From Verrucomicrobiia bacterium (lineage in GTDB: Bacteria > Verrucomicrobiota > Verrucomicrobiia > Opitutales > Cerasicoccaceae): DNA of 64,000 nucleotides. This document shows, one piece after another, positions 602-59,483 of this stretch (position 1 is its first letter; each line of letters starts with the position of its first letter). The DNA lies in assembly GCA_030432235.1 (NCBI GenBank), contig JAUIHT010000008.1, positions 1-64,000 on the forward strand, written 5' to 3'. The notes under the pieces were generated by a model. That model did no database searches and was not told the origin of the DNA. It worked only from the letters and a program-made list of their open reading frames with translations. The translations under genes were made by a program, and so were the position numbers.

Positions 602-880
602 TTGAAAAATATAGTATTTAAACATGTAAAGGCCTTGAGGCTATCCCATGGCTGGTCTCAGGACGCGCTCGTGGCTAAGCTAAATCTCCAGAGCTGGGAT
701 GTTTCACGCAGCACGCTGGCGAAGATCGAATCTGGCATTCGCGCAGTATCTGACGCCGAAGTATGGGCTTTGGCAAAAGCACTTAAATGTACACCAGCTG
801 ATCTTCTTGGCGGTGATCCTAAAGAAATCTCAGAGGTTTTGACCGGTACTCGAGTTACTCCTCGCCGTAAGCAAAAATAG
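602..880 (+). CDS. XRE-family transcriptional regulator (module L)
   Basis: A 92-residue protein that is almost entirely one XRE/Cro helix-turn-helix domain: VKALRLSHGWSQDALVAKL, then SRSTLAKIESGIRAVS, then ALAKALKCTPADLLGG. It starts at TTG, with GGAG about 7 nt upstream supporting that start. It holds the same position as the XRE gene at 50510 in module R, ahead of the structured leader and gene A, but the two are not close relatives. Just downstream (929-984) is a remnant of the tail of the module R type regulator, so the regulator seems to have been exchanged here. It probably controls module L; targets are unknown. Confidence 0.8.
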   Translation: MKNIVFKHVKALRLSHGWSQDALVAKLNLQSWDVSRSTLAKIESGIRAVSDAEVWALAKALKCTPADLLGGDPKEISEVLTGTRVTPRRKQK

Positions 881-928
881 TCCTGCTTATTGCAGGCCTG
901 ACTAACGTTTAGCCACAGTAATAGAAGG

Positions 929-984
929 CAAGCGTGTCGGCAGACCGCCTACAAAGCCTGCCTCAAATAAGCGTCCGACGTAGG
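929..984 (+). pseudogene. 3' remnant of an AT-hook-tailed XRE regulator
   Basis: This stretch translates to KRVGRPPTKPASNKRPT, stop. It matches the C-terminal tail of the XRE regulator at 50510-50851 (KRVGRPPKKPASNKRPQAG). No start or HTH precedes it; a different XRE gene ends at 880. It is therefore a leftover of the ancestral regulator of module L. The GRP core is AT-hook-like. Confidence 0.65.
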
Positions 985-990
985 CGGGCT

Positions 991-1455
991 AAATCCGGGC
1001 ACTGCCCACACCTGGAGAGGGGTAGATTCCAGCCCAAACCTCCTATTTTTAAGCCAGGAGAAGGTATAACTGCACTCCTGATTATGGTAGCAACCGTTAA
1101 AAGGTTGATGCCTCCTGGGCCATCTCCCCAAGGCGTCGCAGGGCGCGCAAGATAGCGTTCCTGTCCTACGTGGAACGCGGCGATTTCTTTTTGATAACTC
1201 AAGGGAAAATAAACGGGGGATTCATTCTGTAGGTGCTCCGAGTTGAAAAGGGAAGCTTAACGCCCGCCCCTTCGGAGGGGCCCGCTTCCTGGGGAAATTC
1301 AATGTCTGCGACGCTTTCTGAATACAAAATACAGATTCGGTCTCTCCATTCCCTTGTAGGGGGACTGCGGTGTCCTCCGTCCGTGCTGGCAATATGCAGA
1401 GGACTCCCTTCGCGAGGCCCCCTGCATGAGCAAGAAAATATGAATTCTGCGAATT
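991..1455 (+). ncRNA. Structured leader of module L, copy 1 of 3 (candidate ncRNA)
   Basis: No convincing ORF fills this 465-nt stretch. It aligns over its length with 50850-51312 and in its first third with 46208-46446. Shared blocks are AATCCGGGC, AGGGGTAGA, CAGCC, AACTGC, then (copies 1 and 2) TTTTGATAACTCAAGGGAAA, GTGCTCCGA and GGGGGACTGCGG. Several hairpins keep their place while their bases change: CTCCT/AGGAG here against CTCTT/AAGAG in copy 2; CCCCTTCGGAGGGG here against CCCC...GGGG in copy 2; and a final GCAG...CTGC stem against GCGGC...GCCGC. That pattern suggests an RNA structure under selection. It ends at the start of gene A, so it could be a long 5' UTR or a free RNA. Confidence 0.6.
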
Positions 1456-2106
1456 ATGAGAAACTACACTCTGACTTCTTCAGTACCCATATTATGTCCT
1501 GGCAACGACACTTTTATTGGGCAAACGCCCGATGGATGGATGTTCTATGAAACGCCGGATGGGCTGCTTTATCTGGCAAATCAAATCCCGACTCAAGAAG
1601 GCTACATTCTTCCAGTGAGTGAAGCGCATAGGGCCAGGCTAATTGCGCTGGCAAACCGCTTCACCGAGGGTGGCAAGCATCTGGTACAAAAGCCAAACGC
1701 GAAAGGTTATACGCCATATTCGATTCCAATGCTTCCCGGGCTTCTGGGGATGTCGCCGAGAGAGGATCGACTTTTTGGAACAGGTCAAAACATTATCGGC
1801 TTTGTAACGCAAAGCCTGGTGCCATACTTCATTCATGGCGAGCACTGCATCGTAGCCGATGCGCTGCCCTTTCGGCTGGCCTTATCTTTACTGGATAAGC
1901 TGCCCTATGCGGAGCTGACCGCCGATGCCTCCGACCCGGAGTATCCCAAAATATTTATCGAGCTAGACGGACTTTATGTCTGCTTCCATCTGGTCCATCC
2001 AGGCGATGGAAACGAACACTTTTGCGAGGGCTGCATTCATGCCACGCCAGTGCTCCTGCATGGAGAGCATGAAGGCCAAAATTTGAACCTCAAAATTCAG
2101 TCATAA
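1456..2106 (+). CDS. Module protein A, copy L (unknown family)
   Basis: A 216-residue protein of no family I recognise. The start is chosen because MRNYTLTSSVPILCP lines up with the N-termini of the copies at 51313 and 46447. Conserved blocks among the three copies: DGW near residue 27, YILPVSEAHRA, IIGFVTQSLVPYFIHGEHC, VADALPFRLA, FHLVHPGDG and a C-terminal GCIHATPVLL. No signal peptide or membrane segment is seen, so it is probably cytoplasmic. The DGW block and the final I-x-[ST]-P motif recur in module proteins E and G, suggesting one superfamily. It sits directly behind the structured leader in all three copies, so leader and A are the most constant pair of the system. Confidence 0.85.
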   Translation: MRNYTLTSSVPILCPGNDTFIGQTPDGWMFYETPDGLLYLANQIPTQEGYILPVSEAHRARLIALANRFTEGGKHLVQKPNAKGYTPYSIPMLPGLLGMSPREDRLFGTGQNIIGFVTQSLVPYFIHGEHCIVADALPFRLALSLLDKLPYAELTADASDPEYPKIFIELDGLYVCFHLVHPGDGNEHFCEGCIHATPVLLHGEHEGQNLNLKIQS

Positions 2107-2140
2107 TTTTTAGCTTTCTCATGCAAAGCTAAACTCTTCA

Positions 2141-2168
2141 AGGCGGGCCATAACGGCTCGCCTTTTTT
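2141..2168 (+). terminator. Intergenic hairpin A-B, module L
   Basis: AGGCGGGCC-ataac-GGCTCGCCT followed by a T run. The module R counterpart (51999-52025) has AGGCGAGTC-acgac-GACTCGCCT, so paired bases changed together. It could act as terminator or attenuator. It is followed by a low-G spacer rich in AAC/AAA up to gene B. Confidence 0.75.
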
Positions 2169-2217
2169 GTAACCCAAAAACCAAAAAAATAAACAAAGAA
2201 CCTCAAAACCAAATCCT

Positions 2218-2715
2218 ATGGAACAACCTAAAACACAAAGAAAAATCGCTGCCGTCGCGCAGATCATAACCCGCCTAGCAAGAGACGGCTACTTCGAGGT
2301 CATCCTCGATGTGACCGGAGGCTTCGCCTTCCGAGATCAACTCAAATCCACTGGCTTCCAGTTCTGCAGAAACCGTTCGGCAGGCTTAGGCAGTGACACG
2401 CCCCTCGACAAAAACGGGGAGCGCTCGACCCAAGCGGTCTGGCGTCGCATCCTGGCCGCCGTGCCGCCTGAGGCCTCACCGGAGCGTGCTCTGGCCGGGA
2501 TCGAACAGGCCATCCAGGACCTCGACGATCTCCTCCAAGGCGTGCTGGAAGGCAGCCGGGTCAAAGGGGCCAAGACCAGCGCTCTCAAGCTGCGTGAACA
2601 CTACCGCACGGCCGAAGGCATCGACGCCCTTGTTGAAAAACTGGCTGCCCTGGACACGCCCTGGGTTCCCGATGAAAATGAAACCACCGTGCCGCGCCCA
2701 GCTTTCGCGGCTTAA
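2218..2715 (+). CDS. Module protein B, copy L (unknown family)
   Basis: A 165-residue soluble protein without recognised domains. It begins MEQPKTQRKIAAVAQIITRL, followed by a GGFAFRDQLKSTGFQF block, a STQAVWRRILAAVPPEASPE block and a helical C-terminal half (IEQAIQDLDDLLQGVLEG, then LREHYRTAEGIDALVEKLAAL). It ends PWVPDENETTVPRP. The copy at 52081 has the same length and is highly similar. It stands between two hairpins as a single-gene unit. No Shine-Dalgarno is evident; the 50 nt before the ATG are A/C-rich. Confidence 0.85.
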   Translation: MEQPKTQRKIAAVAQIITRLARDGYFEVILDVTGGFAFRDQLKSTGFQFCRNRSAGLGSDTPLDKNGERSTQAVWRRILAAVPPEASPERALAGIEQAIQDLDDLLQGVLEGSRVKGAKTSALKLREHYRTAEGIDALVEKLAALDTPWVPDENETTVPRPAFAA

Positions 2716-2743
2716 TCAATAACCAAATAACCTTAACCACTAT

Positions 2744-2780
2744 GGCGGGGCCCCGGTCAATCCGGAGCTCCGCCTTTTTT
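2744..2780 (+). terminator. Intergenic hairpin B-C, module L
   Basis: A 13-bp stem, GGCGGGGCCCCGG paired with CCGGAGCTCCGCC around TCAAT, then six T. The start codon of gene C lies only 5 nt after the T run. The copy at 52607-52643 keeps the stem with compensating changes. With no room for a separate promoter, an attenuator or RNA-processing role is as likely as plain termination. Confidence 0.75.
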
Positions 2781-2785
2781 ATATC

Positions 2786-3337
2786 ATGCAATATATTCAC
2801 ACACCCACACCCCAGGAAGTGCATACTTCTTTGCTTTGCGAAGCAAAGCTAATTCCTCACAGCCCTTTCTGGGACGCTTACGATCACATTCGCGGCCAGG
2901 ATGTGTCTTCGGCTTCCAACATTCTCAGGGAAGACCTCCTCGACGATGAAGGCCACCGATCGGGCAGCAAACGCCTCGGGCTTATATATAGCCTCTGCCA
3001 CGATGACGGAATCAACCTCAGCCATCTGGACTGGCCGCAAGTACTGGCGGCCGCAAATTGCCAAAGCTCACTCGTCCAGCTCTACCGGGCCGGACGCATT
3101 CTGGGAGTGCAGGCCGTCAGCGCGATGCTGGACTTCGGGCATGCCTTCGTGTCCTTGCGCTTATTCGAGATAACCGGACCCGAAGCATCCGCTTTGCTCC
3201 AGCTCTTTGACTTGGAAATGGACGTCATCCTATCCAGCCCGCAAACCGATGAGGCCATGCTCAAGTGGCTCATCGAACGCCAGGAACGAGCCGAACACTA
3301 TCTGGAACCCATCGCCGATCTCTATGCAACAGCCTGA
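2786..3337 (+). CDS. Module protein C, copy L (unknown family, paralogue of F)
   Basis: A 183-residue soluble protein of unknown function. Visible blocks: PFWDAYDHIRGQD near residue 30, SGSKRLGLIYSLCHDDGINL, LDWPQVLAAANCQS, YRAGRILGVQAVSAMLDFGH and LFDLEMDVILSS. The same framework (FW-x-AY, a C-H-D/YHAV region, LDW...AA, R-x-GRI, then H..F..G) appears in module protein F, so C and F look like ancient paralogues, mostly helical. Its last 14 nt overlap the start of gene D, which implies translational coupling. The overlap is the same length in module R. Confidence 0.85.
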   Translation: MQYIHTPTPQEVHTSLLCEAKLIPHSPFWDAYDHIRGQDVSSASNILREDLLDDEGHRSGSKRLGLIYSLCHDDGINLSHLDWPQVLAAANCQSSLVQLYRAGRILGVQAVSAMLDFGHAFVSLRLFEITGPEASALLQLFDLEMDVILSSPQTDEAMLKWLIERQERAEHYLEPIADLYATA

Positions 3338-3722
3338 CCTCTTCCTGCCGTATCCCGGCACGCGCATCCTAGCCTCAGGACCCGAAGCACTCCTTATCAA
3401 AGAATTCGATGGCACTCTCGGTATAATCGACCGCACCCGTTATCAAATCTACCGCTTAAAGCCCCTAAGCTTCAGCATCGGCTTCCAAATGCTCGGCTCA
3501 CCGATCAACGGTATGGGCCTTTTCCGGGGAGGTCTACCGGAGGCTCTCGGCTTCTGGCTAGGAAGAGGCGCAACCTACGTGGGGCTGCTCAATGACGGCA
3601 TCATGCCTGAATGCGAGCTGTTGTGCACGACCCGCATCCTCGCCAGCCCCGGCCAGCTTCAACACCGCCGAACGCCCCATGAGCCTTGGAAGAAACTCAT
3701 CTGGCATATCGAACCAAAATAA
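3324..3722 (+). CDS. Module protein D, copy L (unknown family)
   Basis: A 132-residue protein. The ATG at 3324 is chosen over upstream in-frame starts because it gives the same length and N-terminus as the module R copy (PYPGTRILASGPEALLIKEF) and a conserved 14-nt overlap with C. Blocks: GIIDRTRYQIYRL, LGSPINGMGLFRGGLPEALG, FWLGRGA, TTRILASPGQLQ. The final RILASPG resembles the C-terminal I-x-[ST]-P signature of A, E and G, so D may be a diverged member of that group. It probably works with C. No known domain is recognised. Confidence 0.8.
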   Translation: MQQPDLFLPYPGTRILASGPEALLIKEFDGTLGIIDRTRYQIYRLKPLSFSIGFQMLGSPINGMGLFRGGLPEALGFWLGRGATYVGLLNDGIMPECELLCTTRILASPGQLQHRRTPHEPWKKLIWHIEPK

Positions 3723-3773
3723 TAACCGAACCTCAACGCCTGTTTCGTCAGGCAAAACCATACAACCACTCAC

Positions 3774-3805
3774 GCGTCGGATCCCTCCAGGGGTCCGGCG
3801 CTTTT
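3774..3805 (+). terminator. Intergenic hairpin D-E, module L
   Basis: GCGTCGGATCCC pairs with GGGGTCCGGCGC and is followed by TTTTATTTT. The counterpart at 53648-53680 has GCGCCGGATCC/GGGTCCGGCGC. Gene E starts about 25 nt downstream. Confidence 0.7.
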
Positions 3806-3829
3806 ATTTTATATATAAACCAAAAAACT

Positions 3830-4282
3830 ATGAAAATTAAAATCAACCCACAAACCGACCCTTACCTTCACTTCATCGACGGCTGGCAGATTTTTCGCAC
3901 CATAAGCGAAGACCGCAGCTATTACATAATCAAAGATGGAAAGCTCATTCTGATCCTGGGCTTTCATCAAAATATTAGCTTCGGCATGGCGCTCAAAAGC
4001 AATGCTCTGCGAATCAATCACGACGTCATAGATGGTATTGATCTGCTTAGCGTAATCATGCCGCACGATGACTTGCTCATCCTCACGAATGCGGACGTGC
4101 ATGACGAACTTGCCCGGATTCTGCCTGCACACAGCGGAGGCATGAGCATCCTTTCACCCACCGTAATTTATCAGTCCGGCTACCAATCAATTCCCATTAA
4201 TGACCCACACCCAAGCGGAAAATCTTTCGATGTTTTTACTCTGGATGAGTTCGAAACCTCGGGAGGGAAAATATACCGATGA
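3830..4282 (+). CDS. Module protein E, copy L (unknown family, paralogue of G)
   Basis: A 150-residue protein. The start at 3830 is fixed by alignment with the module R copy, whose first 71 nt are identical. It opens MKIKINPQTDPYLHFIDGW, has alternating hydrophobic strands (KLILILG, IDLLSVIMPHDDLLIL), then DELARILPAHSGGMSILSP and SGKSFDVFTLDEF. The DP..D..L..IDGW opening and the G-x-x-I-x-[ST]-P motif are shared with G. Its stop overlaps the start of F (ATGA), as in module R, so E and F are probably made in fixed ratio. Function unknown. Confidence 0.85.
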   Translation: MKIKINPQTDPYLHFIDGWQIFRTISEDRSYYIIKDGKLILILGFHQNISFGMALKSNALRINHDVIDGIDLLSVIMPHDDLLILTNADVHDELARILPAHSGGMSILSPTVIYQSGYQSIPINDPHPSGKSFDVFTLDEFETSGGKIYR

Positions 4283-4821
4283 GGTTCGTGGACAAAATCG
4301 CCCGACCTAGTTCCTTCTTTCATGCGCTCCGCACCGAATACATCGCAGAGCCAGTCGACTCCTGTTTCTGGGGTGCCTACGAACTTGTTAAACAAGACCG
4401 CACCCTCGCCGCCTGGCGACATTTCAGGGATGGTCTCAGGCAAAGTATCTACGGTCCAGAAGCCGATCAGGTCACCAGCCGCTACTTACTGTATCATGCT
4501 GTCGGCCGCTACCAACGCATCGATACCCAAGGCCTGGACTGGCTGCACCTGATCGTCGCCGCCGGGCTCACACTCGAAGTCCAGCGTTGGATCTGGGCAG
4601 GAAAAATCGGGACCATACACTACTGGCACGCATGTTTTGAACTGGGCAAGCTGCCTAAATTTCTGCCGCTCATGCTTCAGCCTGAGCCAGAAGAAATCAC
4701 GGCCCTCTTGAAAACATACGCCCTCGAGCAAAGGTGCTTTTCGAAGTATCATGGCTCACCGCCTTACGCCGAAGATTTCTGGGTCCAGCGTCAGGCAGTA
4801 GCCACCGCTTTTCTCATTTAA
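4279..4821 (+). CDS. Module protein F, copy L (unknown family, paralogue of C)
   Basis: A 180-residue, mainly helical soluble protein. Blocks: ARPSSFFHALRTE, AEPVDSCFWGAYELVKQD, LAAWRHFRDGL, SRYLLYHAVGRYQRID, GLDWLHLIVAAGLTLEVQRW, WAGKIGTIHYWHACFELGKL. The order FW-x-AY, YHAV, LDW..AA, R-x-GKI, H..FELG matches protein C. It is translationally coupled to E through ATGA. The C-D and E-F pairs each join one helical C/F-type protein with one D/E-type protein, in opposite order. Function unknown. Confidence 0.85.
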   Translation: MRFVDKIARPSSFFHALRTEYIAEPVDSCFWGAYELVKQDRTLAAWRHFRDGLRQSIYGPEADQVTSRYLLYHAVGRYQRIDTQGLDWLHLIVAAGLTLEVQRWIWAGKIGTIHYWHACFELGKLPKFLPLMLQPEPEEITALLKTYALEQRCFSKYHGSPPYAEDFWVQRQAVATAFLI

Positions 4822-4852
4822 ATTATAACCAACAACCATTCATCAACCATGG

Positions 4853-4887
4853 GCCGGTCTCCCATCCGAGGAGGTCGGCTATTTTTT
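4853..4887 (+). terminator. Intergenic hairpin F-G, module L
   Basis: A 10-bp stem, GCCGGTCTCC with GGAGGTCGGC, then ATTTTTT. The module R version is at 54718-54755 and there precedes the radical SAM gene instead of G. Gene G follows after an A/C-rich spacer. Confidence 0.7.
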
Positions 4888-4926: not shown

Positions 4927-5349
4927 ATGAATATGAACTCCAATATCGACCCCAGAAACGACACACACCTTGAAGTAATCGACGGGTGGCGCATTTACGC
5001 CGCCCGGTATACTGCCCAGCTATATCTGCGCGGCAAAAATTTCTTCATCTTCATCAACGGTCAGGAGGCTACCACACGCCTGTTACTCGCCCTGTATCAG
5101 GGAGTCGAAAAAATTGAATTCAGCGAGGCCTGTGAATCCGAATCGCTGACCATTCATTATGGTCAGGGAGAAGTGCTAAGCTTGGTTAACTTTTCTGTGG
5201 ATGAAGATACATATGAAATCTTTCAAGAACACAAGCCCGGCCACTGCATTGTTTCTCCACACATAATAATCCAGTACGGGCACCCCGCTATTGTAGAAGA
5301 TGATCTTCCATCAGGCTGGGTGCTGCAGGTGCTTCAACTGCGAGGGTGA
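4927..5349 (+). CDS. Module protein G, copy L (unknown family, paralogue of E)
   Basis: A 140-residue protein starting MNMNSNIDPRNDTHLEVIDG (start matched to the module R copy). Blocks: the IDGWRIY opening, YLRGKNFFIFINGQEA, VLSLVNFSVDEDTYEIFQEH, GHCIVSPHIIIQYG and DLPSGWVLQVLQLRG. The first block and the I-x-SP block are those of E. The 3' half of the gene and the non-coding DNA behind it are nearly identical to module R, while the 5' half has diverged more. This suggests either gene conversion between modules or selection on the nucleotide sequence. Function unknown. Confidence 0.85.
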   Translation: MNMNSNIDPRNDTHLEVIDGWRIYAARYTAQLYLRGKNFFIFINGQEATTRLLLALYQGVEKIEFSEACESESLTIHYGQGEVLSLVNFSVDEDTYEIFQEHKPGHCIVSPHIIIQYGHPAIVEDDLPSGWVLQVLQLRG

Positions 5350-6910: not shown

Positions 6911-8968
6911 ATGAGCTATTCCTCGAAACACGATAAAGCAAAGAGGGCGCCCGCACGGGTCGTCATCTACGCACGTGTTTCGGATAAGAAGCAATTACAG
7001 GATAAATTGGAAGATTCTCTGGAAAGCCAGGAGGCTGGATGCAGGGAGTTTGCCCAGCGTCTATCCTTAGACGGCCAAGAAGCCTCGATCATTGAGGTAA
7101 TAAAAGATGACGGCCGAACAGGCCGTAACGATAAGCGCTCAGGGCTCCAGCGCCTGAAGGAATTAGTCCTCCAGAATAAAGTAGATGTTATTCTGGTAAA
7201 CCGGCTCAGCCGTGTTTTTCGAAATGGCGAACTCGGACTTGGCATCGACAACCTCGTTGAAAAGCATGGCGTACGAATTGTTTCCCGTATGGAACCGGGA
7301 GACAACGATACTGCTTCCGAGAAGTTTGTCCGCGGACTTCACTGGCTTTTGGCTGAAAGAGAGAGCAATGTGATATCAGAAGATGTCAGACGTTCTATCA
7401 GCACGCGAGCGGCCAAAGGCCTGACAAACGGAGGCACGCCAAAGCCTGGTTACAAAACAGAAGGTGGTAGACTTGTCATTGTAAAAGAGGATGCTGCCAC
7501 CGTCGAAGAGATATTTCGTCTGGCCTGCCTGAAGAAAACCCCGATGCAAATCGCAAACGAACTCAATGCTCGGGGACTACGCACACGCGTGCGTATTTCC
7601 AAAAAAGGTAACAAGTCTGGCGGAAATCCGTTTACTCAAGATTATGTGTTTCGGATTCTCAGAGACCCGACCTACAAGGGCGTTATTATATATAACGGTG
7701 AAAGCTACCAGGGAGATTTCGAACCGATCATCTCCGAAGACGTTTGGGATGCCGCACAAGTTGCTCTTGAGAATCGCCCCAGCAAGCGCGAAGGCATTAC
7801 CCAAAGACGCGATCGTTATTTTATGCCGCTCAAAGGCATCCTCCGTTGCGGACATTGCGGTGCAGCGTTGAAACCGACTTACACCAAAAAGGCAGATAAA
7901 CTCTATCATTATTACATCTGCGGTAAACACGAAGACCTCGGAAAGGATTCATCCTGTCCCGTCCAGCGTATCTCTGCCCGGGTGGTAGAACGTTCTGTGC
8001 TTACGGCCGTTGGAGAAATGGCCAACCAATCTGAGGTTATCGAAAAAGTTCTCAACGCTGATGCTTCAGGGCAGGGCAAACGGATTCGCGAACTACGCTC
8101 GCAACGTCGTGCCATTCAAAAGCAACTTAAGGAAATAGATTCGGACGTTCGTGAGTTGAAAGCCAAACTCCTCGCCGTCGCTGGTACCATTGTTGGTGAT
8201 GAGATACGCGATGAGGCTCAAGCCCTGACGGAAAAGAAGAAGCAACTCGTCGCAGATGAGGTGCAGCTGGAGCAGCAAATCAAGTTTTTGGAGTTAGAGC
8301 ATCTCGACGCTGATAAGGTAAGCCGTGGCTTTAAGAAGTTTGCTGAGGCCGTCGCCATGCTTTCCGAGTCTGAGCAAAAAGAGCTGTTTCGGCTGCTTTT
8401 CCAGAAGATCATCGTGAGCGAGGGTGTCACTATCCCTGACCCCGGTATACCCTCCGATAAACGCTGTCGTATGCAGCGGCGTCAGGTGACTGCGATCATC
8501 ACGCTTCGTGGGGCCGCCATTCAGGCTTTAGCTGCCGGGGAGTCTCAAGCCAAAGGGCGGGCTAGGAATCTTGCTGTCGAGTTGATAATCGTCCACAGCC
8601 GCAGCAAACCGACGGAGAGTTTCGGCATCCTTGAGCCCATCTATAAAGAATGCGGCTCGAAACCAACAGGCCCTACCCGCAAACGTACCCCCAAGACCGA
8701 ACACGAAATCCACAAGGCCATTCGCTGGAAAAAGGAAATGGAGTCGTTAGGCATAGGGCAGAATGAGTTCGCCCGCAGGAAGGGACTGTCCCAAGGTGCT
8801 GTCGCCCACGTAATGGCTTGGCTCAAATTGGAGCCAGCTACGATTGGCGTTCTAAAGAAACTCACAGGAACGCAAATTCGCCGCGTGAGTCGTTCAGCCA
8901 GGTCGAAATTGCTTCTACATTATGGTCAGGCGCAACTGCAGTTGCTCAAAGCTCTATTGGGTAAATAG
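6911..8968 (+). CDS. Large serine recombinase (module L)
   Basis: A 685-residue site-specific recombinase. The resolvase domain carries the Y-x-R-x-S motif (YARVS, nucleophile Ser24), followed by VDVILVNRLSRVFRN and the ERESNVISEDVRRSI helix. The recombinase domain follows (PKPGYKTEGG, DYVFRILRDPTYKG), then a zinc ribbon (LRCGHCGAAL ... YICGKH ... SCPVQ) and a long coiled coil (about 380-470). The C-terminal extension has an HTH-like NEFARRKGLSQGAVAHVM. Length and domain order are those of large serine integrases. tRNA-like repeats lie directly downstream (8970-9207), as expected for an integrase next to its attachment site. It is presumably functional, since the frame is intact. Confidence 0.93.
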   Translation: MSYSSKHDKAKRAPARVVIYARVSDKKQLQDKLEDSLESQEAGCREFAQRLSLDGQEASIIEVIKDDGRTGRNDKRSGLQRLKELVLQNKVDVILVNRLSRVFRNGELGLGIDNLVEKHGVRIVSRMEPGDNDTASEKFVRGLHWLLAERESNVISEDVRRSISTRAAKGLTNGGTPKPGYKTEGGRLVIVKEDAATVEEIFRLACLKKTPMQIANELNARGLRTRVRISKKGNKSGGNPFTQDYVFRILRDPTYKGVIIYNGESYQGDFEPIISEDVWDAAQVALENRPSKREGITQRRDRYFMPLKGILRCGHCGAALKPTYTKKADKLYHYYICGKHEDLGKDSSCPVQRISARVVERSVLTAVGEMANQSEVIEKVLNADASGQGKRIRELRSQRRAIQKQLKEIDSDVRELKAKLLAVAGTIVGDEIRDEAQALTEKKKQLVADEVQLEQQIKFLELEHLDADKVSRGFKKFAEAVAMLSESEQKELFRLLFQKIIVSEGVTIPDPGIPSDKRCRMQRRQVTAIITLRGAAIQALAAGESQAKGRARNLAVELIIVHSRSKPTESFGILEPIYKECGSKPTGPTRKRTPKTEHEIHKAIRWKKEMESLGIGQNEFARRKGLSQGAVAHVMAWLKLEPATIGVLKKLTGTQIRRVSRSARSKLLLHYGQAQLQLLKALLGK

Positions 8969-8969
8969 G

Positions 8970-9207
8970 TGTTTACCACTTTTGGCCAATTTTCAGAGCC
9001 AGGCTTAACGATTATGCTCAAAATAGGCGATTATCGAACCAGTGACCAAATGGTAAACACCTTGACGCTTTCATAAATCGCTGTTTTATCGTGTTTTATG
9101 CGAAAGTGTTTACCACTTCGCACCGCAGTTCGATTTTGAAAAATCATGGCTGGCCAAACACTTGTGAAAATTCGAACTGATTGAAATCGGGCCAAAGTGG
9201 TTAACAG
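8970..9207 (+). repeat. tRNA-Asn-like repeats behind recombinase L (candidate att region)
   Basis: Four copies of a word related to CCAAAGTGNTWAACA: 8970-8985 (inverted), 9044-9059, 9107-9118 (inverted) and 9192-9207. The same word occurs in the anticodon arm of tRNA-Asn (59439-59453) and three times behind the module R recombinase. The spacing pattern direct/inverted/direct is alike in both places. They may be recombinase binding sites or relics of successive integrations. Confidence 0.6.
9033..9059 (+). repeat. Partial copy of tRNA-Asn (candidate distal att site)
   Basis: ATCGAACCAGTGACCAA and the ten bases after it match tRNA-Asn at 59426-59452 at 23 of 27 positions, in the same orientation, 50.4 kb apart. 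The tRNA is on the minus strand with its 3' end facing this site. That is the geometry expected for an island inserted at the tRNA. Confidence 0.6.
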
Positions 9208-10160
9208 CTCACAAGGCGCTATTTTAAGCGGAATTCTGCTGTTTTGGCTTTGTTCAATTTCAATCACGGTGATTGAAATCAAGCCACACAACTGAACGTC
9301 CGTATACTGTATGATGGGTGAAAAACACTGCACGATTTCAATCATTTCAATCACGAAGGGTCTAAATGATACTTCAACCTCTTCAGATATTAGGTGTTGC
9401 CCAAGTAAAAGTCGAGCGATGGAGTAGGTTGACATAGCTTGGATAGTCGCACGATTGCCGAATAGGAACGAGAGTTCAGAATGAAAGATATCAATGAGAC
9501 TTTGGGGTTAACCGGGGCAGCACCACGAGGCGGGCAGGGTGTTTCGTTGTTTAGTTAGAGTAGGCGAGATTAGCTCCTGAATCCATAATATGGAGGGTTG
9601 GTAGAGTCGAGAAGCTCTTATATCCAGACTGGCATCCGATATGCCGTGGTGCCGGGTAGAGCCGCCCATTGCTGGGTGACTCCCCCACAGACCTGGACGT
9701 ACACGTTTGATGCATCCAGTTCCTCTGTGAATGAGATTCGCTAAACGTCTAGGTGATAGATACTCGGTGGTGTGATGCCATATAGACAGGTGGCTTTGTT
9801 AACGAAGTCGGAGAAGCGGTCCTGGATACTAGCGCAGTTTCTCGTTCTTCGTTGCAGCCATCCAAACATACCTATTTCGAAACTCAATCACACAGCCTAA
9901 GCATCACCCTGTCTACGCTTCACGCCTTCGTTGCCTCCGGGCTATCAAGACACGGTTCTGATTGTTTGCCAAACGCTATCAGGCGGGCTCTCTCTCACCC
10001 GCTGGGCATATACTCTGACTTTCAATGAACGATTTTTTCTTCTACGTCACGTCCCATCAGATTGGGCTTTCATGGCGCAATGGCTCGTAGGTTGAATAGG
10101 CCAGTAAATTGGGAGTTCGATTTCATTCTTCCACTACACAAACTATCAGATAAAAAATAG
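9208..10160. other. Gene-free stretch with decayed mobile DNA
   Basis: No believable ORF lies in this roughly 950-bp stretch. Its centre (9640-10013) looks like a degenerate group II intron on the minus strand, listed separately. The remainder shows no structure I can name. It separates module L from the metal-resistance cargo. Confidence 0.5.
9640..10013 (-). mobile_element. Degenerate ORF-less group II intron
   Basis: On the minus strand the sequence opens GTATATGCCCAGCGGGTGAG and continues with GGAGGCAACGAAGGCGTGAA, both like domain I of bacterial group II introns. At 9690-9723 a hairpin (CTGGATGCATC ... GTACGTCCAG) followed by TCTGTGGGGGAG resembles domain V. Further on, GGCTCTACCCGGC resembles the intron 3' end. 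There is no maturase between them, so it is shortened to roughly 370 nt. Identification is from remembered consensus; boundaries are approximate. Confidence 0.45.
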
Positions 10161-46207: not shown

Positions 46208-46446
46208 TAATCCGGGCGCAGGTGCCCGGCGAGGGGTAGAGACCAGCCTGAAGCTCCTATAAGAAAAAGAGATGGAGCAAACTGCACATCGAGATGATGG
46301 TAGATAAAACCAGGGTAGGGGGGCTACAGATAAGGGGGGCGGGCATCGTGCGATGCCCTGTCTGTGTACACAAGCTCCTCGAAAAGGAGCCTTCGGCCCC
46401 GTTTTTCCCTTCGGCGAGAAGGATGACAAGAGGGTTCTCTGAACTT
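46208..46446 (+). ncRNA. Structured leader, copy 3, before the solitary A gene
   Basis: Begins AATCCGGGC like the other two copies and keeps AGGGGTAGA, CAGCC and AAACTGCAC. Hairpins: CCGGGC...GCCCGG at the front; CTCC...GGAG where copy 1 has CTCCT/AGGAG; then GGGCATCGTGCGATGCCC and GCTCCTCGAAAAGGAGC, both perfect. The second half differs in sequence from copies 1 and 2 but is again a chain of hairpins. It ends at gene A3. Confidence 0.55.
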
Positions 46447-47175
46447 ATGAAAAATACACCCTTATCCTTTTCCACCCCTATATTATCCATGCAGCGCGAC
46501 CTGTGCTTGGGCGAAAGCCCAGGCGGCTGGTCGCTCTTTCAATCCCCTCTTGGGCGGATCTACCTTGGCTGTCATGCACCCGGCGAGGAGGAATACATAC
46601 TGCCTTTACGTGCCGACATTATTGAGACGTTTCAGAATCTATTCCACAAGCACTCTCACTGTGCTCCCGAATCTGTCGCTGAGGATGCTGAAACCACTGA
46701 CGAAACATTCGAAGACTCTGTTTATATATATGACGATGTTTCCAATGAAGATGTCGATGATATTGACGAATGGGATGGCATCGATGGTGGCGATGCCGCC
46801 AACGGAGATGTTCTTTCACTGCGCCCGGGCCGGGACCGGGTGACGGGATCCGGTGACGATATTATCGGCTACGTAACACCGTTCGGAGTGCCTTATTTTC
46901 TGCACAATGACTACTGTGTCGTCTGCGATGCGCTGCCATTTCGGATCGCGTTCGGGCTATTGAATTCTACTGAAGACGCAGACATCATTGCCGACATGGC
47001 GAATCCGATATCGCCGAAGATCCATCTTCGTCAAGGTGAGCTTCATTTAACCTTTCACCTCACTCATATCGATGGCTTCAAGCCAGAATGCGCTGATGGT
47101 GTTATACACGCCACCCCGCTACTTCTCATCGGCACCTACAAGGGCAAACGTCTTCACCTGTCGCATCAGGACTAA
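46447..47175 (+). CDS. Module protein A, solitary third copy with acidic insert
   Basis: A 242-residue homologue of the A proteins at 1456 and 51313. The start at 46447 (MKNTPLSFSTPILSMQRDL) matches their N-termini. Shared blocks: GGWSLFQSPLGRIYL, YILPLRADIIETF, IIGYVTPFGVPYFLHNDYC, VCDALPFRIAFGLL, FHLTHIDGF, GVIHATPLLL. Between the first and second block it carries an insert very rich in Asp and Glu (for example SNEDVDDIDEWDGIDGGDAA) absent from the others. No B-G genes follow, so A plus leader can stand without them. Confidence 0.82.
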   Translation: MKNTPLSFSTPILSMQRDLCLGESPGGWSLFQSPLGRIYLGCHAPGEEEYILPLRADIIETFQNLFHKHSHCAPESVAEDAETTDETFEDSVYIYDDVSNEDVDDIDEWDGIDGGDAANGDVLSLRPGRDRVTGSGDDIIGYVTPFGVPYFLHNDYCVVCDALPFRIAFGLLNSTEDADIIADMANPISPKIHLRQGELHLTFHLTHIDGFKPECADGVIHATPLLLIGTYKGKRLHLSHQD

Positions 47176-50509: not shown

Positions 50510-50851
50510 ATGATGCGGTGTTTAAAGGGCTATCTTATGAGGTATATTTCATGGGTGCCTAGCTCCTATGAAGTCCTCATTACTAATCTTCGTAATTTGC
50601 GTGAAACCAACGATTTAACGCAGGAGAAGGTTGCGGAGCGATCCGGTCTTGACTACAAGCATTATCAAGGGATTGAGGCAGGTCGACGACCTGAGCTACG
50701 CCTATCCACAGTGGATAAGCTGGCCAAAGCCTACGAATTACAAGCCTGGCAACTGCTGCAGCCAAAGCGAGGCAGCTCAAAAGCACCTGAAAAGCGTGTT
50801 GGTAGACCGCCTAAAAAGCCTGCCTCAAACAAGCGCCCGCAGGCGGGCTAG
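50510..50851 (+). CDS. XRE-family regulator with AT-hook-like tail (module R)
   Basis: A 113-residue protein (a later ATG at 50537 is possible). HTH: LRNLRETNDLTQEKVAERSG, DYKHYQGIEAGRRPELRLST, AKAYELQAWQLLQ. The basic tail KRVGRPPKKPASNKRPQAG has the R-G-R-P core of AT-hooks. A decayed copy of the same tail sits at 929-984 in module L. It immediately precedes the structured leader of module R. Confidence 0.82.
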   Translation: MMRCLKGYLMRYISWVPSSYEVLITNLRNLRETNDLTQEKVAERSGLDYKHYQGIEAGRRPELRLSTVDKLAKAYELQAWQLLQPKRGSSKAPEKRVGRPPKKPASNKRPQAG

Positions 50852-51312
50852 ATCCGGCTGCGGGTCGCACCCGGCGAGGGGTAGATATCAGCCTGATGCT
50901 CTTAAATAAACAAGAGACAGGAATAACTGCGCTCGAGATTAAGTTAGAAGCCGCAAAAGGGGGTGGCGTAGAGTTTGTGAACAGGGATCTGTCTCAGCCT
51001 TTACGCTCTAACGCCTCCAGGCTGCGGAGCTTCTCCTGTACGCGCTGACGGTAGCGCCGTTGACGCTCGGCGCTCTTTTGATAACTCAAGGGAAATCAAA
51101 CGGGGGGAATTGATTCTTTAGGTGCTCCGAACTGGCTAGGGAAGCGTGACGCCCCCCGTTTCAGGGGAGCCTGCTTCCTGAGGGCAAATGAGAAATACGG
51201 TCACTCCATTCCCATCTAGGGGGACTGCGGTTTCCTCCGTCCGGGCTGGCAAACGCGGCGGCTACTTCGTTCACGCCCAGCCGCTCTCTAAAGCTAATGA
51301 GTTCTGCGAACT
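50850..51312 (+). ncRNA. Structured leader of module R, copy 2 of 3 (candidate ncRNA)
   Basis: Aligns with 991-1455 throughout. Conserved words include AGGGGTAGA, AACTGC, TTTTGATAACTCAAGGGAAA, GGTGCTCCGAACT and GGGGGACTGCGG. Stems with changed but still paired bases relative to copy 1: GCTCTT/AAGAG, CCCC/GGGG, and GCGGCGGC/GCCGC before gene A. No open frame is shared between copies. Seen directly; the RNA interpretation is inference. Confidence 0.6.
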
Positions 51313-51963
51313 ATGATATACAATACACTGGCTTTTACTACTCCTATTCTATGTCCCTGTAACGACGTGTTCTACGGGCAAACACCCGATGGCTGGATGC
51401 TCTATGAGACACCGGATGGGCTCCCTTACCTCGCTAAAGAAAGACCTCCAGTGCAAGGCTACATCCTTCCGGTCAGTGAAGCGCATAGGGCCAGGCTAAT
51501 TGCGCTGGCAAGACGCTTCACCGAGGGTGGCAAGCATCTGGTACAAAAGCCAAACGCGAAAGGTAATACGCCACATTCGATTCCAATGCTTCCCGGGCTT
51601 CTGGGGATGTCGCCTGCACAGGATAGGCTGATTGGCTCCGGCAAGAACATTAACGGCTTTGTGACGCAAAGCATGGTGCCGTACTTCATTCACGGTGAGC
51701 ACTGCATCGTAGCCGATGCGCTTCCATTTCGGCTGGCCTTCTCTTTAATGGTTAAGCTGCCCTATGCGGAGCTGACCGCTGATGCCTCCGACCCGGAGCA
51801 TCCCAGAATATTCATCGATCAAGACGGACTTTATATCTGCTTCCACCTGGTCCATCCAGGCGATGGAAACGAATATTTTTGCGAGGGCTGCATCCATGCC
51901 ACGCCAGTGCTCCTCAAAGGTGAACATGTAGGCAAAAATCTGCACCTCAAAATGCAGCCATAA
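51313..51963 (+). CDS. Module protein A, copy R (unknown family)
   Basis: A 216-residue protein, same length as the module L copy. N-terminus MIYNTLAFTTPILCPCNDVF; blocks DGWMLYETPDGLPYLA, YILPVSEAHRARLIALARRF, INGFVTQSMVPYFIHGEHC, FHLVHPGDGNEYFCEGCIHA. The central stretch from the SEAHRA block to the PMLPGLLG block is almost identical at DNA level to module L, while the ends differ more, so the two copies may have exchanged sequence. Followed by a TTAGCTTT/AAAGCTAA stem and the A-B hairpin. Confidence 0.85.
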   Translation: MIYNTLAFTTPILCPCNDVFYGQTPDGWMLYETPDGLPYLAKERPPVQGYILPVSEAHRARLIALARRFTEGGKHLVQKPNAKGNTPHSIPMLPGLLGMSPAQDRLIGSGKNINGFVTQSMVPYFIHGEHCIVADALPFRLAFSLMVKLPYAELTADASDPEHPRIFIDQDGLYICFHLVHPGDGNEYFCEGCIHATPVLLKGEHVGKNLHLKMQP

Positions 51964-51998
51964 ATTTTTAGCTTTCTCATACAAAGCTAAATTCCTCA

Positions 51999-52025
51999 AG
52001 GCGAGTCACGACGACTCGCCTTTTT
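51999..52025 (+). terminator. Intergenic hairpin A-B, module R
   Basis: AGGCGAGTC-acgac-GACTCGCCT then TTTT. Counterpart of 2141-2168 with paired substitutions. Confidence 0.75.
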
Positions 52026-52080: not shown

Positions 52081-52578
52081 ATGGAACAACCCAAAACACA
52101 AAGAAAAATCGCTGCCGTCGCGCAGCTTATAACCCGCTTAGCGAAAGACGGCTACCTAGAGGTCATCCTCGATGTGACCGGAGGCTTCGCCTTCCGCGAT
52201 CAACTCAAATCCGCAGGCTTCCAGTTCGTCAAAGACCGGTCGGCTGGTCTGGGCAGCGACATCCCCCTCAACAAGAACGGGGAGCGCTCGACTCAGGCGG
52301 TCTGGCGCCGTATCCTCGCTGCCGTACCGCCTGAGGCCTCACCAGAGCGTACTTTGGCTGGACTCGACCAAGCTATTCAGGACCTGGAGGAACTCCTCCA
52401 AGGCGTGCTGGAATCCTCGCGCGTAAAAGGGGCTAAAACCAGCGCCCTCAAGCTAAAGGAGCACTACCACACAGCTGAAGGCATCGATGTCCTTACTGAA
52501 AAGCTGGCCGCCCTAGATACGCCCTGGGTACCCGATGAAAATGAAACCACCGTGCCGCGTCCTCAATTCGCGGCCTAA
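52081..52578 (+). CDS. Module protein B, copy R (unknown family)
   Basis: A 165-residue protein, the same length as the module L copy, with MEQPKTQRKIAAVAQLITRL, GGFAFRDQLKSAGFQFVKDR, STQAVWRRILAAVPPEASPE and the PWVPDENETTVPRP end. It is single between two hairpins. No function can be proposed from sequence. Confidence 0.85.
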   Translation: MEQPKTQRKIAAVAQLITRLAKDGYLEVILDVTGGFAFRDQLKSAGFQFVKDRSAGLGSDIPLNKNGERSTQAVWRRILAAVPPEASPERTLAGLDQAIQDLEELLQGVLESSRVKGAKTSALKLKEHYHTAEGIDVLTEKLAALDTPWVPDENETTVPRPQFAA

Positions 52579-52606
52579 CCAATAACCAAACAACCTCAAC
52601 CATTAT

Positions 52607-52643
52607 GGCGGAGTTCCGGTCATTCCGGGGCTCCGCCTTTTTT
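52607..52643 (+). terminator. Intergenic hairpin B-C, module R
   Basis: GGCGGAGTTCCGG pairs fully (with two G-T) with CCGGGGCTCCGCC around TCATT, then six T; gene C starts 6 nt later. Counterpart of 2744-2780. Confidence 0.75.
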
Positions 52644-52649
52644 GTCACC

Positions 52650-53201
52650 ATGCAATACATCTATACACCCACACCCCAAGAAGTACATACTTCTTTGCTT
52701 TGCGGAGCAAAGCTAACACCTAGAGGTCCCTTCTGGGACGCCTATGATCACATCCGCGGCGACGATATGTCTTCTGCTTCGAACATTCTCAGAGAAGAAT
52801 ATCTCGACGAAGAAGGCCATCGATCGGGCAGCAAAAGACTCGGGCTCATATATAGCCTCTGCCACGATGACGGAATCAACCTCAGCCACCTTGACTGGCC
52901 ACAACTCCTGGCAGCCGCAAATAACCAAAGCGGCCTCGTACAACTTTACCGGGCAGGACGCATCCTGGGAGTGCAAGCCGTCAGCGCGATGCTGGACTTC
53001 GGTCACGCCTTCCCGTCGCTGCGCCTATTCGAGATAACCAGACCAGAAGCATCCACATTGCTCCAGCTTTACGATCTGGAAATGGACGTGATTCTCTCCA
53101 GTCCGCAGACCGACGAGGCCACGCTGACTTGGCTGGTGCAAAGGCAAGCTCGCGCTGAAGAATACCTCGAACCACTCGCAGACATCTATGTTAAAACCTG
53201 A
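52650..53201 (+). CDS. Module protein C, copy R (unknown family)
   Basis: A 183-residue protein. ATG 52650 is taken because it equals the module L start; an in-frame ATG at 52605 lies inside the hairpin and has no counterpart in frame in module L. Blocks as in copy L: PFWDAYDHIRGDDMSSASNI, LGLIYSLCHDDGINLSHLDW, YRAGRILGVQAVSAMLDFGH. It overlaps D by 14 nt. Confidence 0.85.
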   Translation: MQYIYTPTPQEVHTSLLCGAKLTPRGPFWDAYDHIRGDDMSSASNILREEYLDEEGHRSGSKRLGLIYSLCHDDGINLSHLDWPQLLAAANNQSGLVQLYRAGRILGVQAVSAMLDFGHAFPSLRLFEITRPEASTLLQLYDLEMDVILSSPQTDEATLTWLVQRQARAEEYLEPLADIYVKT

Positions 53202-53589
53202 TGCCTATCTGCCTTATCCAGGCACACGTATCTTAGCCACTGGGCCCGAAGCACTTCTTATCAAAGAATTTGATGGAGCCATCGGGGTTATCGACCGTAC
53301 CCGCTACCAGATATACCGTCTGCCCCCCATCAGCTTCAGCATCGGCCTACAGCTTCTCGGCTCACCAATCAACGGGGTGGGCCTCTTTCGGGGAGGCTTA
53401 CCGGAGGCGCTGGGCTTTTGGCTGGGACGCGGCGCTGTGATGGTGGGCATGCTAGATGATGGGCTCATGCCCGAAAGCGAGCTGCTTCACACGACCCGCA
53501 TCCTCGCCAGCCCCGGCCGACTGCAATACCGCCGAAGCGCCACCGATTCCTGGAAAACGCTCATCTGGCATATCCAGCCGCAATCATAA
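53188..53589 (+). CDS. Module protein D, copy R (unknown family)
   Basis: A 133-residue protein beginning MLKPDAYLPYPGTRILATGP. Blocks: LLIKEFDGAIGVIDRTRYQI, LLGSPINGVGLFRGGLPEAL, GFWLGRGAVMVGMLDDG, LHTTRILASPGRLQYRR. It starts within the last codons of C (14-nt overlap), as in module L, so translation of D probably depends on C. Confidence 0.83.
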   Translation: MLKPDAYLPYPGTRILATGPEALLIKEFDGAIGVIDRTRYQIYRLPPISFSIGLQLLGSPINGVGLFRGGLPEALGFWLGRGAVMVGMLDDGLMPESELLHTTRILASPGRLQYRRSATDSWKTLIWHIQPQS

Positions 53590-53647
53590 AACACACTCAA
53601 GGCCTGCACCCGCAGGTTTTAACAAACAACAAAATCAACCAACTCAC

Positions 53648-53680
53648 GCGCCGGATCCTTACAGGGTCCGGCGCATTTTT
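53648..53680 (+). terminator. Intergenic hairpin D-E, module R
   Basis: GCGCCGGATCC-ttaca-GGGTCCGGCGC then ATTTTTATTT. Counterpart of 3774-3805. Confidence 0.7.
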
Positions 53681-53699
53681 ATTTCTACACTAAAATCAC

Positions 53700-54149
53700 A
53701 TGAAAATTAAAATCAACCCACAAACCGACCCTTACCTTCACTTCATCGACGGCTGGCAGATTTTTCGCACCACAAGCGAAGACCGCAGCTTTTATCTAAT
53801 CAAAGACCAAAAGCTCATTCTCATCCTGGGCGAGGTCCATAACGAAGTCTTATCCCTGGCATTGCAGAGCGATGTTCAGCGAATCCGTTACGACTTTATC
53901 GACGAAATCGAACTGCTCAGCGTTCTTCTGCCAAAGGATCAACTGTTGATCTTCACCAATGTAGAAGTACATGAGGAACTTGCTCGTATCCTGCCGGCTC
54001 ACCACGGAGGTATGTCCATCCTGACTCCTGGTGATATTCACCAATCCGGCTGCGAGCCTACGAAGGTGGAAGCGCTGCACCCCAGCGGTAAATGCTTCGA
54101 CGTTTTCACCCTGGATAAATTTGAAGCTGGAGGAGAGATGCACCGATGA
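53700..54149 (+). CDS. Module protein E, copy R (unknown family)
   Basis: A 149-residue protein, identical to copy L over the first 24 residues (71 identical nt) and then diverging. Blocks: DGWQIFRTTSEDRSFYLIKD, KLILILGEVHNEVLSLAL, IELLSVLLPKDQLLIFTNVE, ELARILPAHHGGMSILTPGD. ATGA overlap with F. Paralogue of G. Confidence 0.85.
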   Translation: MKIKINPQTDPYLHFIDGWQIFRTTSEDRSFYLIKDQKLILILGEVHNEVLSLALQSDVQRIRYDFIDEIELLSVLLPKDQLLIFTNVEVHEELARILPAHHGGMSILTPGDIHQSGCEPTKVEALHPSGKCFDVFTLDKFEAGGEMHR

Positions 54150-54688
54150 CGCTGGAAGACACACTCGCCCGGCCCAGCTCCTTTTTCCATGCGCTCCGCA
54201 GCGAAGACATCGCCGAGCCCGTGGACTCCACCTTCTGGGGGTCGTACGAACTCGTTAAACAAGACCGCATGCTTGCAGCCTGGCGGCATTTTCGGGAAGG
54301 TCTCACGCAAAGCATATTCGGTCCAGAAGCCGATCAGGTCACCAGTCGCTACCTGCTTTATCATGCTGTCGGCTGTTACCAACGCATCGATAGCCCCGGC
54401 CTTGACTGGCTGCATCTGATTGTCGCTGCGGGGCTAACCCTCGAAGTACAGAGATGGATACGGGCAGGGAAAATCAGGACCATCCACTACTGGCACGCCT
54501 GTTTTGAACTGGGCAAGTTGCCTGACTTCTTGCCGCTCGTGCTGCCACCGGAGACTGAAGAAATCGCGGCCCTCCTCGTAACATACGAATTAGAGCAAAG
54601 GTGTTTTTCGAGGTATTACGGGACGCTCCCGTATGCCACAGACTTCTTGCATCAACGCCAGGCTGTCGCCATCGCCCATCTCCTCTGA
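54146..54688 (+). CDS. Module protein F, copy R (unknown family)
   Basis: A 180-residue protein, same length as copy L. Blocks: LARPSSFFHALRSEDIAEPV, FWGSYELVKQDRMLAAWRHF, SRYLLYHAVGCYQRID, GLDWLHLIVAAGLTLEVQRW, HYWHACFELGKLPDFLPLV. Translationally coupled to E. Paralogue of C. Confidence 0.85.
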   Translation: MTLEDTLARPSSFFHALRSEDIAEPVDSTFWGSYELVKQDRMLAAWRHFREGLTQSIFGPEADQVTSRYLLYHAVGCYQRIDSPGLDWLHLIVAAGLTLEVQRWIRAGKIRTIHYWHACFELGKLPDFLPLVLPPETEEIAALLVTYELEQRCFSRYYGTLPYATDFLHQRQAVAIAHLL

Positions 54689-54717: not shown

Positions 54718-54755
54718 GAGCCGATCTCCCATCCTAGGGGGTCGGCTCTTTTTTT
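54718..54755 (+). terminator. Intergenic hairpin after F, module R
   Basis: GAGCCGATCTCCC-atccta-GGGGGTCGGCTC then seven T. Counterpart of 4853-4887 but followed by the radical SAM gene. Confidence 0.75.
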
Positions 54756-54775: not shown

Positions 54776-55750
54776 ATGAACAACGAACGAACCACTATGA
54801 ACCGTAAGCCGGTGTTTACTGTGCCGGCACGCACTATTCTTAATCTCCAATCGGCCTTCCAGCATAAGCTGCTTTGCGACGGACCAACCTTCAGCGCGGG
54901 CAGCGCCTGCGCCTACTCATGCGCTTTCTGTTACGTGCCCTCGATGATGAACCGATCCGCGCATGCGAACGTGCTCACTGAATCCAAAACACGATTTGAA
55001 GACGCCGTCATTCGACGTCAGAGCGCAGCTAAAATCCTGCATGATCAGCTCCACTTTTCTGATGGACGACCACGTTTCAACGATCCCAAAGACACGCGGG
55101 TAGTGTACGCATCACCCTTGGTCGATGTCGCAGCCAACATGGAGTTGGTACGCGAGACTATTGAGTTGTGCCGTATAATTTTGGAGTCAACACACTGGCA
55201 AATTCGCTTGCTCTCCAAAAGCAACCTGCTCCCCGTCATTGCACGAGAACTGTCCGACTTTCGCAGCCGTATGATCTACGGCGTTTCCACCGGAACTTTG
55301 GACGATGGTGTTGCTCAAGCAATAGAAGCGGGTACGCCGCGGGTGTCCAAGCGCATCAAGTCCCTCCATACCTTACAGGATGAGGGCTATCGGACATATG
55401 GCATGATTTGTCCGAGTTTGCCGCAAGACGACTACTTTGCCTTCAGCCGGGAGATGTGCCGCGCCATCCGTACCGAGAAATGCGAACACATTTGGTGCGA
55501 AGTTATAAACGTCCGTGGGCAATCCATGAACCGCACAGTCGATGCACTGCGCCAAGCAGGCTACGATGCCGTTGCTGCTCAACTCGCGGCCACAAGTAAC
55601 CGAAGCATTTGGGAGGCTTACGCAAGAGAGACTTTTCTTGCGCATACGCAATTTATCCCGCCGCAAAAGCTGAGATTTTTACAATACGTTACACCTGAAA
55701 CCCGCAACTGGTGGACCCAGCAAACATACAGAGGAGCGATTCTCCTGTAA
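54776..55750 (+). CDS. Radical SAM protein, spore-photoproduct-lyase-like, inserted in module R
   Basis: A 324-residue radical SAM protein (ATG 54797 would give 317). The cluster motif CX3CX2C is GSACAYSCAFCYVPSMM near residues 45-52. Further on FNDPKDTRVVYASPLVDVAA, STHWQIRLLSKSNLLPVIAR, SRMIYGVSTGTLDDGVAQAI EAGTPRVSKR and GYRTYGMICPSLPQDDYFAF. The arrangement resembles the SPL/SplB-like radical SAM group (DNA photoproduct repair and relatives), without a substrate-specific sign. Module L lacks it. It sits between two hairpins of the F-G type, like an added cassette. Confidence 0.82.
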   Translation: MNNERTTMNRKPVFTVPARTILNLQSAFQHKLLCDGPTFSAGSACAYSCAFCYVPSMMNRSAHANVLTESKTRFEDAVIRRQSAAKILHDQLHFSDGRPRFNDPKDTRVVYASPLVDVAANMELVRETIELCRIILESTHWQIRLLSKSNLLPVIARELSDFRSRMIYGVSTGTLDDGVAQAIEAGTPRVSKRIKSLHTLQDEGYRTYGMICPSLPQDDYFAFSREMCRAIRTEKCEHIWCEVINVRGQSMNRTVDALRQAGYDAVAAQLAATSNRSIWEAYARETFLAHTQFIPPQKLRFLQYVTPETRNWWTQQTYRGAILL

Positions 55751-55834
55751 TTCACAAGCAGCCCAATGCTATCCATCCTGAAAAGTAAGTTAGCTATGCA
55801 TAACTTTGTGACTAAGCAAAATCCATCTAATTAG

Positions 55835-55870
55835 CGTCGGCCAAATAAAAAGGAAGGCGCTATTTTTTAA
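55835..55870 (+). terminator. Weak second F-G-type hairpin before gene G, module R
   Basis: GCGTCGGCC-loop-GGAAGGCGC then TATTTTTTAAC. The flanking bases equal those before G in module L. It looks like a worn duplicate of the F-G hairpin left after the radical SAM gene was inserted. Confidence 0.4.

Positions 55871-59408: not shown

Positions 59409-59483
<75 letters not shown>

Follow-up and report, generated by a model that had tools for sequence, protein, structure and literature searches.

The stretch of DNA analysed here (hereafter the window) comprises 64,000 nucleotides (nt) from a Verrucomicrobiia bacterium of the family Cerasicoccaceae (assembly GCA_030432235.1, contig JAUIHT010000008.1, positions 1 to 64,000) and carries two co-directional gene modules about 50 kb apart, L (~0.9-5.4 kb) with seven genes and R (50.8-56.4 kb) with eight, in which a hairpin followed by a run of Ts stands behind each one- to three-gene unit. 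Judged from their sequence, these hairpins are probably intrinsic (Rho-independent) terminators placed inside the gene array and partly read through, thereby acting as attenuators. A first-pass annotation of the same DNA had proposed a conserved hairpin just before the next start codon at every gene boundary, the same four in both modules, and had regarded them as more likely to be attenuators or processing sites setting gene ratios than simple terminators. As detailed below, the hairpins and their conserved pairing stand, while their placement had to be redefined.

Placement, anatomy and conservation of the hairpins

The survey of gene boundaries covered L, R, a third module of the same genome (M3; contig C34, ~170-175 kb, minus strand, locus L007) whose gene B is 57% identical, and a genome of the same family (G002) that has a more distant array in two copies, one of which was included. 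A hairpin was found at 16 of the 26 boundaries, corresponding to 16 of the 18 where the genes lie 20 nt or more apart and to none of the eight overlapping or abutting gene pairs such as C|D and E|F. The rule of placement is therefore a hairpin behind each unit of one to three genes and not one at every boundary, the latter claim holding for four of the six boundaries in L and five of the seven in R. The four T-run hairpins described for L and their four homologues in R were all recovered, and at each of the 16 gaps none of 60 dinucleotide shuffles matched the observed hairpin; R contains, moreover, a fifth one (55832-55862) ahead of gene G, after an additional radical-SAM gene. The hairpin layout is preserved in M3 and in one related genome.

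All 16 hairpins show the anatomy of an intrinsic terminator, with a GC-rich stem and a T run on the coding strand starting at most 2 nt from the stem. In 13 of them the stem lies 10-36 nt behind the upstream stop codon, and in 15 the terminator score, of the d'Aubenton-Carafa type, is positive. The free energy of folding (dG) goes from -11.6 to -26.3 kcal/mol over the whole set, and from -14.0 to -26.3 kcal/mol for the four hairpins of L and the homologous four of R. A second hairpin precedes the main one at A|B and D|E in both modules, and the main helix of the extra A|B hairpin has 85.7% paired cells across three modules. The linkers between hairpin and start codon are almost free of G (3% G in 539 nt, 16 linkers); counting their last 30 nt or fewer, all 12 linkers of the own genome have at most two Gs, versus 25 of 260 other starts, and in the folded gaps the stems stand in otherwise unpaired RNA. 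A Shine-Dalgarno-like match is absent at 15 of the 16 starts preceded by a hairpin, an absence that does not distinguish the modules, since only 16% of 389 genome starts have such a match.

The proposal that stems are kept through paired substitutions was supported, and the change given as its example, from GGGCC/GGCTC to GAGTC/GACTC, is present in the sequence. Over the four stems shared by L and R (46 pairs), 13 substitutions change ten pairs, all of which remain paired, three of them by double change; random placement of 13 substitutions breaks a mean of 8.0 pairs and none of 20000 simulations did as well, in a test somewhat favoured by the choice of stems that are strong in both modules. 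Similarly, H1 keeps all ten pairs across L, R and M3, three of them with changes on both sides. These comparisons support the view that the hairpin structure is under selection for pairing.

Such hairpins are scarce elsewhere in the genome. In a baseline of 551 kb (C34 plus 300 kb of contig C3, modules excluded), 6 of 64 co-directional pairs with a gap of 60-160 nt have any hairpin with a T run and 2 of 64 a strong one at most 60 nt from the next start, in comparison with 7/8 and 6/8, respectively, for the modules under the identical automatic procedure (Fisher 5e-6 for 6/8 versus 2/64); this baseline is approximate, because genes were called by a simple greedy choice of open reading frames (ORFs). 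In a 200-kb sample of G002, the corresponding numbers were 6 and 3 of 26 comparable pairs. Altogether, a chance origin of the hairpins is ruled out by the shuffles, the retention of pairs and the genome baseline, and a genome-wide habit by their rarity in that baseline, where the two strong examples have G-containing leaders. A generic terminator scan found 18 candidates in R, an excess over the 6.8 of the shuffles, and six in L, where the shuffle mean was 6.6; as there is no excess in L, significance rests on the position-specific tests. In another genome (G005), gene B lies inside an array whose other genes differ, with hairpins in five of six gaps of at least 20 nt; their tails are often poorer and the next start is farther off, which brings them nearer to ordinary terminators.

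Proposed read-through of the terminators and alternative explanations

Gene C begins 5 nt (L) and 6 nt (R) behind a run of six Ts, so that the mRNA of C must pass the hairpin; the lack of room here for a separate promoter had been pointed out in the first-pass annotation. This start is credible, as four of the five codons that differ within the first 12 carry synonymous changes, and codon 12, a GTG in L, reads GTA in R. By eye, R has an ORF that opens with an ATG at the base of H2 and continues across the hairpin in frame into C (window 52605-53201), and the equivalent frame of L is not joined to gene C. B|C is the only boundary of L and R with a hairpin right before the start codon; at the others the T run begins 24-60 nt ahead of the next gene, a space that could hold at most a compact promoter.

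According to the explanation we favour, every unit of one to three genes in a co-directional array would end with an intrinsic terminator, and the genes would form a single operon as judged by their orientation and spacing. The following unit would be reached only by RNA polymerase that gets past the terminator, given that C starts so close after the U-run and that the remaining gaps, all of them short, lack a convincing promoter. Some polymerases would stop at a given hairpin, leaving a protected 3′ end on the upstream mRNA, and the remaining ones would continue, so that expression would fall unit by unit, with read-through being either passive or helped by an antiterminator. Between the two roles initially suggested, attenuator and processing site, the former (as a leaky or antiterminated terminator) is better supported, because the T run after all 16 stems and their fairly fixed distance behind the upstream stop give them the look of terminators of the upstream unit.

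Several observations weigh against this explanation. A strong stem followed by six Ts could halt almost every polymerase, and C would then be silent unless read-through were assisted. Two gaps have no hairpin (M3 G|radical-SAM, 73 nt, and G002 D|A1, 38 nt), and terminator scores are low at F|G of L (-5) and radical-SAM|G of R (2). Covariation in H2 is modest, 62 of 500 shuffles reaching its paired percentage with four sequences, and the three-way alignment of H3 is no better than shuffles, in part owing to gaps in the alignment that disrupt its outer pairs. As for the gaps themselves, the whole F|G gap of L folds only weakly better than shuffles (z -1.78; 6/200 as good). Finally, the promoter scan has low power in this genome, with a 9-of-12 match in 13.9% of divergent upstream regions versus 10.4% of coding controls; it barely separates upstream from coding DNA, so missing promoters are weak evidence and there is room for promoters inside upstream genes.

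Alternatively, the hairpins might be ordinary complete terminators that only insulate the units, each unit having its own promoter within the gene ahead of it or across the hairpin. We regard this as unlikely, even with the canonical anatomy and the position of the stems behind upstream stops in its favour, together with a weak promoter-like match (8 of 12) that follows the stem and precedes the start codon at F|G of L and radical-SAM|G of R, and the 24-43 nt that separate the beginning of the T run from the following gene in M3 and G002. At B|C of L and R, any transcript starting upstream of H2 must cross H2, and no plus-strand match of at least 9 of 12 was found in any hairpin gap of either module, save one at D|E of R that overlaps the start of E.

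Somewhat less probable still is that the stems serve selective RNA processing and stabilisation (SRPS), where the primary transcript would be cut in the linkers and the stems would guard the upstream 3′ ends, thus setting ratios. Stems isolated in G-poor, unpaired RNA and a second A|B hairpin devoid of a T run would fit such a role, for which there is a precedent in the cip-cel operon of Clostridium cellulolyticum: the available portion of that account (PMC4423207) likewise describes stem-loops at the 3′ ends of upstream genes within one operon. That system is, however, defined by its processing sites, whereas in the present array every one of the 16 main stems is directly followed by a T run, which processing does not need.

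The hairpins are very improbably (also) cassette joints, that is, sites of gain, loss or swap of units. In favour of this, the radical-SAM gene of R sits between H4 and H5 where L has a single hairpin, which in the alignment resembles R H4 in its front part and R H5 in its tail, as though gain or loss of a unit had taken place there, and related units occur in different order in M3 and G002. Against it, a single event is clear, all T runs lie on the coding strand, in keeping with an RNA signal, and no core motif common to the stems was seen. Units bounded by hairpins may move as wholes.

A leader RNA upstream of the arrays

A conserved structured motif of ~100 nt precedes the arrays of L, R and M3 and the two array copies of G002. 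A covariance model (R1) built from five copies recovered another one on contig C38, which had no part in its building, with 64.3 bits. Over the six sequences, 6 of 12 pairs are changed on both sides, and shuffles scored as high in 0-1 of 500 cases for paired cells, double changes and covariation score and in 28 of 500 for pair types, with an alignment fitted to its structure that favours the covariation result. Among 286 genomes, the leader was found only in the two that have gene A. At the leader, no match to an Rfam family attains the gathering score, and the only match in the window between 900 and 5500 at E values up to 1 was to P31 (23 bits), elsewhere than the leader. Pattern searches of viral contigs gave 6 and 60 matches; 35 of these 66 loci were scored with the model and none exceeded 18.3 bits, near chance.

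By our own reading, the leader copies lie behind genes resembling XRE, PIN or other regulators. Inspection by eye of window positions 880-985 suggests that the end of an R-type XRE gene was left behind a different XRE gene in L, where the regulator seems to have been replaced.

Intrinsic terminators within an operon have been considered a good indication of processive antitermination in a work, available in part, that also describes the conAn2 RNA (PMC8955417). In this line, the leader might be a self-encoded processive antiterminator of a new family of elements, so that polymerases having passed it would read through each terminator and stray transcription would stop at the first one. We hold this idea as a tentative one with rather low odds, as no array follows either the solo copy (46209) or the C38 copy, and the leader is missing from the G005 array.

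Internal terminators, processing stem-loops and antitermination in mobile elements are known ideas, and our literature search gave no description of this array. The closest likeness is with the conAn operons of pLS20-type conjugative plasmids, which, in the excerpt of that work (PMC8955417), are mobile-element operons with many internal intrinsic terminators, as is proposed for the present array, and with an RNA near the operon start that belongs to the antitermination system, comparable to the upstream leader with its putative role; they differ in their Gram-positive hosts and conjugation genes, the present array having a few uncharacterised genes instead and no protein identified as ConAn1-like. 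Tn916 is an integrative element, like the presumed carrier of the present arrays, with functional terminators (T1-T3) and a cis-acting antiterminator, canT, most likely an RNA, but terminators at nearly every unit boundary are a feature of the present array not seen for Tn916 in the part of the source at hand (PMC11658703). Internal operon termination tied to differential expression is also described, in the accessible part of the report, for Methanococcus maripaludis (PMC10450193), which is archaeal and whose terminators were mapped by RNA methods. As far as these partial sources go, operons of mobile elements with many terminators are known from Gram-positive conjugative elements, where they are paired with antitermination, and the present array would extend that design to the family of the window's genome. 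The homologous modules provide a compact and naturally replicated test set with the same hairpins, near-G-free leaders and upstream structured RNA. If the leader does antiterminate, it would be a new antiterminator RNA; if not, the arrays would be a clean case of passive attenuation.

Genes of the arrays and their genomic setting

The features of both modules are collected in Table 1. The genes fall into related unit families (A; C/F; D; E/G), and none of A-G was matched significantly in searches of Pfam, NCBIfam, PHROGs and PADLOC, where B, C and D gave only weak hits (E 0.03-0.1). The structures modelled with AlphaFold for B and A, with a mean predicted local distance difference test (pLDDT) of 55 and 38, respectively, are too poor for searching. 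Among the 384 genomes sampled in the class, three carry gene B and the system is therefore narrow; searches of viral contigs, genome contigs and plasmids gave no relatives of it. Gene A occurs in 2 of 36 genomes, and C/F also in 2 of 36.

Table 1. Leader RNAs, hairpins and genes of modules L and R (window positions unless a locus is given; dG in kcal/mol)
Feature	Position	Strand	Remarks
Leader RNA, L	992-1095	+	model R1, 84.7 bits; among the five source sequences of the model
Leader RNA, R	50851-50952	+	R1, 104.7 bits
Solo leader RNA	46209-46308	+	ahead of a lone gene-A relative (46447-47175); no hairpin array
Further leader copy, L109	6386-6486
Further leader copy, L007	8637-8735	-
Further leader copy, L008	9661-9762	-
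Gene A, L	1456-2106	+	216 aa; no family match
Extra AT-rich hairpin ahead of H1, L	2109-2133	+	no T run; R counterpart 51967-51991
H1 (A|B) and T run, L	2142-2168	+	stem 2142-2162; dG -15.2
Gene B, L	2218-2715	+	165 aa
H2 (B|C) and T run, L	2744-2780	+	stem 2744-2774; dG -24.0; ATG of C 5 nt on
Gene C, L	2786-3337	+	start backed by codon pattern
Gene D, L	3324-3722	+	overlaps C
Extra small hairpin ahead of H3, L	3738-3753	+	R counterpart 53599-53620
H3 (D|E) and T-rich tail, L	3774-3811	+	stem 3774-3801; dG -22.8
Gene E, L	3830-4282	+
Gene F, L	4279-4821	+	aligned with C as a relative; 4-nt overlap with E
H4 (F|G) and T run, L	4852-4887	+	stem 4852-4880; dG -15.6
Gene G, L	4927-5349	+	relative of E
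Gene A, R	51313-51963	+
H1 and T run, R	52000-52024	+	stem 52000-52020; dG -14.0
Gene B, R	52081-52578	+
H2 and T run, R	52607-52643	+	stem 52607-52637; dG -26.3; ATG of C 6 nt on
Gene C, R	52650-53201	+
Gene D, R	53188-53589	+
H3 and T-rich tail, R	53648-53683	+	stem 53648-53674; dG -23.0
Gene E, R	53700-54149	+
Gene F, R	54146-54688	+
H4 and T run, R	54718-54755	+	stem 54718-54748; dG -21.1
Radical-SAM gene, R	54776-55750	+	not in L
H5 (radical-SAM|G) and T run, R	55832-55868	+	stem 55832-55862; dG -11.6
Gene G, R	55908-56330	+

A large serine-recombinase gene lies downstream of L (6911-8968), matching the integrase family phrog_95, and a relative of it downstream of R (57148-59214); we infer that both arrays sit on an integrative element. 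By eye, a partial tRNA-Asn-like sequence follows directly behind the L recombinase (8970-9120) and the R recombinase adjoins a tRNA-Asn itself (59409-59483), the presence of this tRNA or part of it beside both recombinases suggesting integration at tRNA-Asn. The two array copies of G002 (L008 and L009) are closely similar and ~788 kb apart.

Relatives of the radical-SAM gene were found at eight genome-contig loci, on two viral contigs and on contig C12 of the own genome, and none in phage records; six of these eleven loci (L085, L077, L078, L080, L091 and L092) were examined, and among the neighbouring genes listed none belongs to the A-G families. As read from ORFs, with no search made, genes resembling metal-efflux systems of the CusA/CzcA type occupy the region between the modules (10533-32347), and genes resembling a type I restriction-modification system follow M3 in L007. 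In the Rfam search, window 9837-9993 on the minus strand also matched RF02005, a family of group II intron domains, with 56 bits.

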